A stretch of 64,000 bases of DNA from a bacterium endosymbiont of Escarpia laminata (GTDB lineage Bacteria; Pseudomonadota; Gammaproteobacteria; Chromatiales; Chromatiaceae), in NCBI GenBank assembly GCA_003660235.1, contig QGON01000066.1:1-64000 (forward strand), in the 5' to 3' direction. Of this stretch, positions 1 to 28,972 are shown in pieces (position 1 is the first letter of the stretch; each line of letters opens with the position of its first letter). The position numbers and the translations under genes are program-made. Under the pieces are notes generated by a model, which searched no databases, was not told where the DNA came from, and saw only the letters and a list, made by a program, of their open reading frames with translations.

Positions 1-139
1 ATCTGGCTGAATTCTGTTATCGCTTCAATCGCCGATTCAAGCTTGAAGAGATGATTTCGCGCCTCGGCTACGCTGCAGTGCGCACACCACCCATGCCACA
101 ACGCCTCCTCAGCATGGCTGAGGCTCGGGGGTAATCAGG
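1..139 (+). mobile_element. Right end of an IS1595/ISXO2-like insertion sequence
   Basis: The element ends in GGGGGTAATCAGG at 127-139, with GCTGAGGCTC just before it. Read inward this is CCTGATTACCCCC followed by GAGCCTCAGC, nearly the same as the ends of the MITE copies. It lies inside an IS4-family transposase reading frame that resumes at base 140, so it interrupted that gene. The left end and the target duplication partner are outside the window. Confidence 0.8.
3..134 (+). pseudogene. IS1595-family transposase, C-terminal end (cut by window edge)
   Basis: The frame from base 3 is open and encodes about 43 residues ending in a TAA at 132-134. It contains EFCYRFNRRF followed later by RTPPMPQRLLSMAE, which is the typical C-terminus of ISXO2-like (IS1595 family) DDE transposases. 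The element's right terminal repeat overlaps the stop codon and ends at 139. The rest of the gene lies upstream of the window, so I cannot tell whether the transposase is intact. Its terminal repeat matches those of the two MITE copies at 1400 and 17196, so this element or a sister copy is the likely source of the transposase that moves them. Confidence 0.8.
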
Positions 140-853
140 AAACCTTATGTATGGAAATTAAACCATAGTGGCCATATTCCAGAATTTGTTACAGTCACGG
201 ACGGCAAGGTAGGTGATGTTACCGTTGGCCGAACCATTGATTTTCCCAAAGGTAGTATCGTGGCAATTGATCGTGGGTATAATGACTACATCTGGTACAA
301 CCAATTGACTGAGAAAGAAATATTCTTTGTAACACGTCTTAAATCTAATGCTAAAACTCGTATTGTGCAACGCAATTCAGTGCTGAAGAACAAGGGCCTG
401 ACCAGTGATCATACTATTGAGTTTAGCGGTACACATACAGCAAAGAAATGTCCTATTCAGTTACGCCGCATTGGGTACCGTGATCCAGAAACAGGCAAGC
501 ACTACATTTTCCTGACCAACAATTTCAAGTTGGCTGCTAAGACTATTGCCGATATCTATAAGGCACGCTGGGATGTCGAGCTATTCTTTAAATGGATCAA
601 GCAGAACCTGAAAATCAAAACCTTCATCGGAACCAGCAAGAATGCTGTCATGACCCAGATATGGATTGCGATGTGTGTTTGTCTACTTCTGGCATTCATC
701 AAATTCCAGTCGAAGCTGAAGAAAAGCATGCAGCAAATTCTTCGTTTATTGCAGCTCAATCTGTTTGAAAAAACGAGACTTGATGGCTTTGCTGTGAAAG
801 TTAACGGGACAGCAGTGATATCATGTCCTTTCGGTAGCGAAGGAAGAAGCTGA
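140..853 (+). pseudogene. IS4-family transposase fragment interrupted by IS1595-like element
   Basis: From base 140 the frame reads PYVWKLNHSGHIPEFVTVTD and continues without a stop into VAIDRGYNDY, YKARWDVELFFKWIKQNLK and a C-terminal hydrophobic segment. This is the second half of the catalytic core of IS4-family DDE transposases, with the Y-(2)-R-(3)-E-(6)-K signature visible in ARWDVELFFKWIK. The N-terminal half is missing on this side of the IS1595 insertion and may lie left of the window. The last 20 or so residues, after LQLNLFEKTRLDG, do not look like a usual IS4 C-terminus, so the 3' end may also be rearranged. It is non-functional as it stands. Confidence 0.75.
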
Positions 854-1399: not shown

Positions 1400-1595
1400 C
1401 CTGATTACCCCTAAAGCTCAGCCACTGAGGAGAGCTATGAGTGTAACTCTATGAAATATAGCCATTACTTTGTGTTGCTGACTATTGAGCAGAAGAACAT
1501 GCCAATTTCTTCATACTTTTGAATTTGAAAACCAACGTCAAATCAAACAGTTGCTGTTACTGTGCCACAATAGCTGAGTCTCAGGGGTAATCAGG
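1400..1595. mobile_element. 196-bp MITE, copy 1, with perfect 8-bp target duplication
   Basis: The element starts CCTGATTACCCC and ends GGGGTAATCAGG. The inverted ends stay similar for about 22 bp (CTCAG at 1416-1420 against CTGAG at 1574-1578). It is flanked on both sides by TATTTCTT (1392-1399 and 1596-1603), a perfect 8-bp duplication, the size made by IS1595-family transposases. It is AT-rich and has no coding capacity. It is base-for-base identical to the copy at 17196-17391 and in the same orientation. It lies about 40 bp upstream of the hydrolase start at 1636, whose ribosome binding site is outside the element. Confidence 0.93.
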
Positions 1596-15943: not shown

Positions 15944-16719
15944 TAGCGGAGGATGCTGCGTCCGCCCTGCGCAATGAAATCCACCATAATGCCGACTTCA
16001 GGCGCCTCGCCCGCCATCTCACGAATCGATTCGATCGCCTCTTCCAGCCGCAACTGGGACTTGTAGAGCAGTTTGTAGGCACGCTTGATCTGGCGGATCG
16101 CCTGCTCGCTGTATTGATGGCGCCGCAGTCCTTCAGTGTTGATGCCGTAGGGTTTCGCCGGATGCCCCGAGACCATGACATAGGGCGGCAGATCCTTGGA
16201 GATCACCGAACCCATGGCGCAAAAGCTGTAGGCGCCGATGCGACAGAATTGATGGACGATGGTAAATCCGCCGAGAATCGTGTGATCACTGATTTGCACA
16301 TGACCCCCAAGAGAGGCAGCGTTGGCCATGATGACGTCGTTACCAATCTGGCAGTCGTGAGCCACATGAGTATAGGCCATGAAGAGGTTATCGTTGCCAA
16401 TGCGGGTTGTTCCCACATCCTGTTGCGTTCCCCGATTGATGGTGACGAACTCACGGATGACGTTACGGTCGCCGATCTCCAACCAGGTCGGCTCACCACC
16501 ATACTTTTTGTCCTGTGGATCCTCGCCGACCGAGGCAAACTGAAAGATACGATTATCTTCACCGATCCGGGTCGGGCCGTTGATAACGACATGGGGGCCG
16601 ATGGTGGTGCCACGACCGATCTTCACATCGGCCCCGATCACCGAGAATGGACCGATAGAGACCCCTTCGCCCAATTCCGCAGAGGGATCGATCACCGCCC
16701 GTTGATCGATTTGACTCAT
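15943..16719 (-). CDS. lpxA: UDP-N-acetylglucosamine O-acyltransferase
   Basis: First enzyme of lipid A synthesis, transferring a hydroxyacyl chain from ACP to UDP-GlcNAc. The 258 residues form a left-handed beta-helix of hexapeptide repeats, seen as recurring I-G-x-G steps such as [20 protein letters not shown]. The catalytic histidine lies in [13 protein letters not shown]. The C-terminal helical part begins around [11 protein letters not shown]. Its ATG overlaps the fabZ stop by four bases (ATGA), so acyl-ACP supply and first acylation are made together. Confidence 0.97.
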
Positions 16720-17168
16720 GCCTCAGTGGCGTCTCTTGCGGTGCAGATGACCTCGGCAGTAGCCGCCACCTTCCCATCCACCCTGGCAACGCCTGAGAAG
16801 ATGCCCATTCCACGTCTCATCGCAGTCTGAGTCACCTCCAGTTCAAGCTGATCACCGGGTACCACCGGGCGTTTGAAACGCGCCTTGTTGATGCCGACAA
16901 ACAGATAGATGGTATTTTCGTTAGCGGTCTCCGGATGGGACTCACGAGCCAGCAGGCCGGTGGCCTGCGCCATCGCCTCGACGATCAAAACACCCGGCAT
17001 TACCGGTTTGATGGGAAAATGTCCGTTGAAGAAGGGTTCGTTGTAGGTCACATTTTTCAATGCCAACAGACGTTTGTCCTTCTCGAACTCCAATACCCGG
17101 TCTATCAATAAAAACGGATAGCGGTGCGGTAACAGGCGCAGCACCTTCTCGATGTCCATCACAACCAA
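16716..17168 (-). CDS. fabZ: 3-hydroxyacyl-ACP dehydratase FabZ
   Basis: Dehydrates 3-hydroxyacyl-ACP in fatty acid elongation, competing with LpxA and LpxD for the same acyl-ACP. The hot-dog fold signature is complete: [42 protein letters not shown] with the active-site His and Glu. Start is uncertain: TTG at 17168 sits a few bases after GGGGAGAGAACG, while the ATG at 17159 gives the more usual [14 protein letters not shown]-terminus but is 14-15 bases from that site. A 196-bp MITE is inserted 27 bp upstream of the TTG, between this gene and lpxD, so the old operon junction is changed. Confidence 0.93.
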
Positions 17169-17195
17169 CGTTCTCTCCCCTTGATCAATACGTTA

Positions 17196-17391
17196 CCTGA
17201 TTACCCCTAAAGCTCAGCCACTGAGGAGAGCTATGAGTGTAACTCTATGAAATATAGCCATTACTTTGTGTTGCTGACTATTGAGCAGAAGAACATGCCA
17301 ATTTCTTCATACTTTTGAATTTGAAAACCAACGTCAAATCAAACAGTTGCTGTTACTGTGCCACAATAGCTGAGTCTCAGGGGTAATCAGG
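17196..17391. mobile_element. 196-bp MITE, copy 2, inserted between lpxD and fabZ
   Basis: Identical to the copy at 1400-1595 and in the same orientation. It is flanked by a perfect 8-bp duplication ATACGTTA (17188-17195 and 17392-17399). The right-hand duplication contains the lpxD stop codon, so the insertion fell exactly at the end of lpxD without changing the protein. It places 196 bp of AT-rich DNA with inverted ends inside an operon of essential genes. Complete identity of the two copies points to recent movement. Confidence 0.94.
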
Positions 17392-17396
17392 ATACG

Positions 17397-18434
17397 TTAT
17401 CCATCCTGGTCTGTGGCAACTGTTTCCACCTTTTTTTCCAGGCGCTGTAGACGCTTCGCCATCTCATCCAGTTGGCGAATACGCGCCACGGCCTTACGCC
17501 ACTGCTTGTTGTCCATGGCGGGCAGATTGCCACTGTAGTACCCCGGCTCAGAAAAGGAACGGGTAACCATGCTCGCTCCCGAAAAGTGTACATTATCGCC
17601 GATATCCAGGTGGCCGACGAGTCCAACCATACCCCCCAGGGTACAGTTACGGCCAATATGGGTCGAACCCGCTACCGCCACTCCACTCGCCATTGCGGTA
17701 TTGGCGCCGACAATAACGTTGTGGGCGATCTGGATCAGGTTGTCCAGTTTGACCCCGTCCTCAAGCACCGTGTCCTCCAGCGCGCCCCGGTCGATGGTAG
17801 TGTTGGCACCCACTTCCACATCGTTCCCAAGACGGACTCTGCCTGTCTGGGGTACCTTCTCCCATCGACCCTCGTCGTTTGCCAGACCGAAACCATCGCT
17901 CCCCAGAACGGCACCCGGATGGATCAGGCAGCGCTCTCCCACATGAGTCCCATGGCAGAGCGTCACATTGGCTACGAGGCGTGATTCATCAGCAACGACA
18001 CAATCATGCTCAATGATACACCCCGGCCCAATATATACACCTGCCCCGATACGGCTGCCTGCACCCACCACAGCGCAGGGACCGACAAAGGCCGACGGGT
18101 CGATACTGGCCAAGGTATCCACCACTGCAGAAGCGTGACAGCCCGGCTCAAAGACAGGAACGGGATTGAGTTGACGGGAGACCCTCGCATAAGCGAGGTA
18201 AGGGTTATCACTCAGTAATAGCGCGGTAGTGCAGTATTCAGCATCCTCCGGTCTCAGTATCACCGCAGCCGCAGCCGTCTTTTTCAGGTGGCACCGATAT
18301 TTCGGGTTCGCCAGAAAACTGACCTCATCCGGCCCGGCCTGTTGCAGGGTCGCAACCTTTGAGATCAGAATCTGCGGATCACCACGCAGTTCGGCCCCTG
18401 CAATCTCCGCCAAGACTCCCAGTCGAACCGCCAA
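17397..18434 (-). CDS. lpxD: UDP-3-O-acylglucosamine N-acyltransferase
   Basis: Third step of lipid A synthesis: adds the N-linked hydroxyacyl chain. The 345 residues have the N-terminal uridine-binding region (AEIAGAELRGDPQILISKVATLQQAGPDEVSF in part) and a long hexapeptide-repeat helix with the catalytic histidine in LIQIAHNVIVGANT, then a C-terminal helix (WRKAVARIRQLDEMAKRLQRLEKKV). The start appears to be a TTG at 18434 after GTAGGAGTCTGGGGA. Its stop codon lies in the target duplication of the MITE. skp is 11 bp upstream. Confidence 0.96.
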   Translation of the reverse strand: MAVRLGVLAEIAGAELRGDPQILISKVATLQQAGPDEVSFLANPKYRCHLKKTAAAAVILRPEDAEYCTTALLLSDNPYLAYARVSRQLNPVPVFEPGCHASAVVDTLASIDPSAFVGPCAVVGAGSRIGAGVYIGPGCIIEHDCVVADESRLVANVTLCHGTHVGERCLIHPGAVLGSDGFGLANDEGRWEKVPQTGRVRLGNDVEVGANTTIDRGALEDTVLEDGVKLDNLIQIAHNVIVGANTAMASGVAVAGSTHIGRNCTLGGMVGLVGHLDIGDNVHFSGASMVTRSFSEPGYYSGNLPAMDNKQWRKAVARIRQLDEMAKRLQRLEKKVETVATDQDG

Positions 18435-28801: not shown

Positions 28802-28972
28802 GAGTGACTCCTGATTGTGTTGGGTTAGGCCTCCATACATCCCATGAATCGACCTCCCCGCGAAAGCTGGGAGGCACCCCGAACCATGTGCCGATGTATG
28901 TGTGGATTAGTTTTGCTCCCGCACGGGGAAAAACCCCGTAAAGTGAGCAGTGCGAACCGTTTGCGATTCAGC
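28802..28972 (-). promoter_or_regulatory. rpsB mRNA leader, likely S2 autoregulatory element
   Basis: The transcribed leader between the rpsB promoter and ATG is about 170 bases and structured. It has a hairpin ACGGGG-TTTTT-CCCCGT at its 5' part and a second pairing between GCCTCCCAGC and GCGGGGAGG nearer the gene. In gammaproteobacteria the rpsB leader binds S2 to repress rpsB-tsf. The position and double-hairpin form fit; I have not aligned it to the family model. Confidence 0.55.

Follow-up and report, generated by a model that had tools for sequence, protein, structure and literature searches.

How does a mobile element come to lie exactly at the stop codon of lpxD, within an essential operon, and does its presence matter for the genes that follow? 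The locus belongs to a stretch of 64,000 nucleotides (the window) from the 4.25-Mb genome of an endosymbiont of Escarpia laminata. The answer is very probably a lineage-specific, recent insertion of a MITE mobilized by the IS1595 family, which is near-neutral and tolerated with both neighboring proteins intact; it is otherwise ordinary mobile-element biology.

The element consists of 196 bp (17196 to 17391) and is assigned to the minus strand, with the end that resembles the IS1595 left end placed first, which is also the direction of lpxD-fabZ. It is bounded by an 8-bp target-site duplication, ATACGTTA, at 17188 to 17195 on the fabZ side and at 17392 to 17399 on the lpxD side, so that the range of 17188-17399 given for the MITE in the sequence-only reading, an earlier examination of this DNA, coincides exactly with the element plus both duplications. 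The terminal inverted repeat CCTGATTACCCCT is perfect over 13 bp (17196 to 17208 on the plus strand, 17379 to 17391 on the minus strand) and reaches 37 bp (78% complementarity) when the count starts inside the direct repeats. MITEs are a few hundred bp long at most, and this element shows the expected combination of traits: small size, a perfect 13-bp inverted repeat, no transposase (with stop codons in all three minus-strand frames), dispersed copies with duplications, and ends in common with an element of the autonomous type. An Rfam search at gathering scores produced no match at the element.

Both proteins are spared, as the sequence-only reading had maintained. The minus-strand gene order is bamA, skp, lpxD, fabZ, lpxA, lpxB and rnhB; the names of lpxD and fabZ are confirmed by NCBIfam, and the other five are read from the translations. 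The lpxD gene (17397 to 18434, minus strand; TIGR01853, 375 bits with a cut-off of 242.5) retains its C-terminus unchanged, the product ending in DQDG* as in all five congeneric species, and its TAA stop, at 17399-17397 on the minus strand, is within the lpxD-side repeat, where it had been placed before. The fabZ gene (16716 to 17168, minus strand; TIGR01750, 197 bits with a cut-off of 155.15) has an intact start region and Shine-Dalgarno sequence, and its upstream sequence is that of the congeners; the start is separated from the element by 28 bases (TTG, 17168) or 37 bases (ATG, 17159), in agreement with the earlier figures, and the Shine-Dalgarno-like AAGGGGAGAG is located immediately 5' of the TTG. 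Both genes are whole because one repeat holds the lpxD stop and the other leads into the Shine-Dalgarno sequence and the TTG/ATG of fabZ, and the same arrangement would account for the survival of the copy in an essential operon. More generally, an 8-bp duplication can let a mobile element enter such an operon without damage. What does change, again as proposed before, is the mRNA between the two genes, which gains 204 nt: the distance from the lpxD stop to the fabZ TTG is 228 nt, compared with 24 nt without the insertion.

Five full, letter-identical copies of the MITE are found in the genome, each with its own, different, perfect 8-bp duplication (5/5), an observation that is far beyond chance. 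The second copy in the window (1400 to 1595, minus strand) is flanked by TATTTCTT, and its site aligns as empty in 5/5 congeners. The recurrence of the element, together with the fact that some contigs end at IS1595 copies, could raise the suspicion that the insertion is not real but an assembly artefact or a collapsed repeat. Every full copy, however, is contig-internal, with different flanks and its own duplication, and other assemblies, including one that is a single contig, contain related insertions with duplications, so that an artefact is extremely unlikely.

The sequence-only reading called for a comparison of the lpxD-fabZ gap in close relatives and would have been refuted by the same element in every one of them; among five congeneric species, each represented by one genome, the element is missing at this site from all. 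With a flank identity of 96-97%, the gap reads straight through in 5/5, which points to an insertion that is lineage-specific and probably recent. The target is TAACGCAT in all five congeners and TAACGTAT in both repeats here, so that the duplicated target differs from what the congeners have by a single substitution. For the copy on contig C43, the two of the five congeners whose sequence matches the entire flank lack the MITE, and the remaining three match partially; a cleanly empty C3 site is seen in 2/5, with rearrangement or no alignment in the remainder, and the flank of the C63 copy is without a counterpart in all five. Because of the C3 and C63 results, the empty-site evidence of lineage-specificity does not extend to every copy. 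The identical C43 copy (L004 1501-1696) interrupts an apparent methyl-accepting chemotaxis receptor gene, and its joined flanks align without gaps in G002 and G003.

Related MITEs are present in three of the five congeners (96, 91, 89 and 89% identity), each with a perfect 8-bp duplication. The locus documents a recently active, IS1595-linked MITE in a genus with vestimentiferan tubeworm symbionts among its members. The named congeners are endosymbionts of Lamellibrachia tubeworms, namely L. barhami (G001) and L. anaximandri (G003 and G004). Searches of plasmid sequences gave no match to the element, and viral contigs contained no exact match to a 31-base end pattern. Weak matches in G039 (query 109-149) were set aside, as they include neither end of the element and appear to reflect a chance resemblance of AT-rich sequence.

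The likely partner of the MITE is an insertion sequence resident in the same genome (L006 1501-2530, 1030 bp, ends CCTGATTACCCC). It encodes an intact-looking transposase of 315 amino acids, with a zinc ribbon (PF12760) and a DDE_Tnp_IS1595 domain (PF12762; NF033547), and this domain pair, along with the 8-bp duplication, is what derivation from IS1595 would entail; the family was reportedly founded in a paper by Siguier and others in 2009. At its lpxD-side end, the element agrees with the left end of the resident insertion sequence in 27 of the outer 28 bases, and its other end resembles the right end of that insertion sequence. Four related IS1595 elements were fetched from plasmids; CCTGATTACC ends with perfect 8-bp duplications are present in three, and no such pair was found for the fourth. 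An 8-bp duplication is usual in the IS1595 family, according to the part of the source available (PMC8101967). Given the ends that match the resident insertion sequence and the three plasmid elements with their 8-bp duplications, the element is best viewed as an IS1595-mobilized MITE. The transposase would recognize CCTGATTACCCC ends and move the MITE in trans, duplicating an AT-rich 8-bp target on insertion. This mobilization in trans is inferred because the full-length insertion sequence lacks a matching duplication here (5/8 mismatches), as does one full-length copy in G004, and because the interior of the MITE, when compared with the resident insertion sequence, has no match, so that the MITE is not a simple internal deletion of the latter. 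In G012, an IS-sized pair of ends is flanked by a perfect 8-bp duplication.

The resident transposase is 62.7% identical to an ISEc70-annotated and 58.5% identical to an ISKpn3-annotated transposase; these plasmid elements are like the MITE in the CCTGATTACC ends and 8-bp duplications, whereas the MITE lacks a transposase and its interior is unrelated. The right end of an IS1595-family insertion sequence, a candidate autonomous partner truncated where the contig begins, occupies positions 1 to 139 of the window (plus strand) and is identical to the full copy in L006 in 137 of 139 bases; another right end of the resident insertion sequence is found on contig C29. At the edge of the window (1-850), the right end at 1-139 adjoins a fragment of a DDE_Tnp_1 (IS4-like) transposase (about 140-850), which suggests that one insertion sequence was inserted into another. 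On contig C11 (L007 1480-1528), a lone IS1595-like end carries AGGGATAATCAGG, with no partner end in the fetched stretch, and is probably a decayed element.

Placement at the stop codon can be gauged from target preference. The nine target-site duplications (five in this genome and four in congeners) have a mean AT content of 83%, compared with 46% for the window, a value reached by none of 20000 random sets of nine 8-mers, whether these were sampled across the window or at no more than 60 bp from each site. An insertion into the lpxD-fabZ gap would spare lpxD and the fabZ Shine-Dalgarno sequence at 19 target positions; six of the 19 contain the stop and eight touch it, and three of the eight most AT-rich positions contain it. 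The placement is as expected because the element targets AT-rich 8-mers and selection acts against damage; a special mechanism for hitting the stop was rejected on these counts. A similar placement is seen in the L. barhami symbiont (L008 1493-1696), where a 96%-identical MITE lies between prs and rplY, with a duplication whose first base is also the final base of the prs stop (prs being read from the translation). In G003 and G004, the prs gap has small indels and no copy of the element, and the other three are unaligned past the end of prs. A broader scenario, in which this MITE family is active in tubeworm symbionts and inserts time and again at or immediately after the stop codons of housekeeping genes in operons (as at lpxD-fabZ and prs-rplY), the hairpin tuning downstream genes species by species, appears highly improbable.

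Does the insertion affect expression? The empty and occupied sites form a natural with/without pair for asking whether a hairpin-forming insertion changes the expression of a lipid A operon. The RNA of the element folds strongly (z = -7.75), with a predicted hairpin of -79 kcal/mol, whereas the interior alone is not significant (z = -0.40), so that the strong folding comes from the ends. The element could, in principle, alter the output of the operon, lowering fabZ-lpxA-lpxB via polarity, hairpin cutting by RNase III or uncoupling of translation, and both this hairpin and the widening of the gap from 24 to 228 nt are compatible with such an effect. Genes downstream of lpxD are normally essential, however, and blocking them strongly would be lethal. 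Outside the ends, the structure is not significant, with 0 of 60 pairs showing compensatory changes among five element sequences (a small sample), and the C-over-G content is ordinary, since 14% of random windows of 196 nt score as high. A scan of the element for a terminator-like site found none. When the lpxD end, the element and the fabZ start are folded together, the mean unpaired probability predicted for the stretch from the Shine-Dalgarno sequence to the ATG is 0.58, about as open as in the joined empty site (0.48), and the Shine-Dalgarno sequence is predicted to be mostly open with the element present. A precedent is regulation by RNase III through the NEMIS stem-loops of Neisseria, described as proposed in the available part of PMC2229807. 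Altogether, such an effect on output seems unlikely, although a mild polarity on fabZ-lpxA-lpxB may occur.

Even less probable, in fact very unlikely, is a promoter within the element that drives fabZ. There is one sigma-70-like match on the fabZ-directed strand (TAGTCA-18-TATATT, 9/12), but shuffled sequences contain 0.5 such matches on average, both G004 and G005 have an altered -35 hexamer, and G005 has also lost the -10 hexamer. Furthermore, the promoter of the IS transposase, wherever located, was probably not carried over into the MITE because the match to the left end of the insertion sequence is limited to the outer 28 bases. Predictions for the five related copies yield neither the conserved structure nor the promoter beyond the terminal inverted repeats that would be expected of a regulatory RNA element or a mobile promoter, and by these models a regulatory role is unsupported beyond the position. 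Thus, from the sequence-only reading, the MITE at the lpxD stop, the spared proteins and the longer intergenic mRNA stand, and the suggested fabZ promoter and shift in the LpxD:FabZ/LpxA ratio are unsupported. Under the preferred near-neutral insertion, the effect of the added 204 nt with its self-contained hairpin would be small or modest, such as a slight polarity on fabZ-lpxA-lpxB, and any effect of the hairpin in the mRNA would be incidental rather than a designed regulatory role.

Several known systems resemble this one in part. The Correia/NEMIS elements of Neisseria have different termini and belong to a different family (NEMIS duplicates TA), and any hairpin processing here would be conjectural. 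They are alike in being small, able to sit in mRNAs and folding into a hairpin (PMC2229807, available part). As far as the accessible text of the respective papers goes, MITEPye1 with IS1182 (PMC11578231) and RUP with IS630-Spn1 (PMC2229807) are likewise short and without a transposase, with duplications and a terminal inverted repeat common to an insertion sequence, and MITEPye1 also shares the hairpin-forming RNA and the low copy number; the present element differs from both in its IS1595 partner family and its 8-bp duplication. A literature search combining Endoriftia with MITE found nothing, and in the matches for IS1595, ISSod11, ISPna2 and nonautonomous elements the word MITE is absent. 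The portion available of the paper on the closed Endoriftia genome reports 77 insertion sequences, with IS1595 unmentioned there (PMC9796809). Elsewhere in the window, at 28824-28922 on the minus strand, there is a match to the t44 RNA family (RF00127, 74.1 bits).
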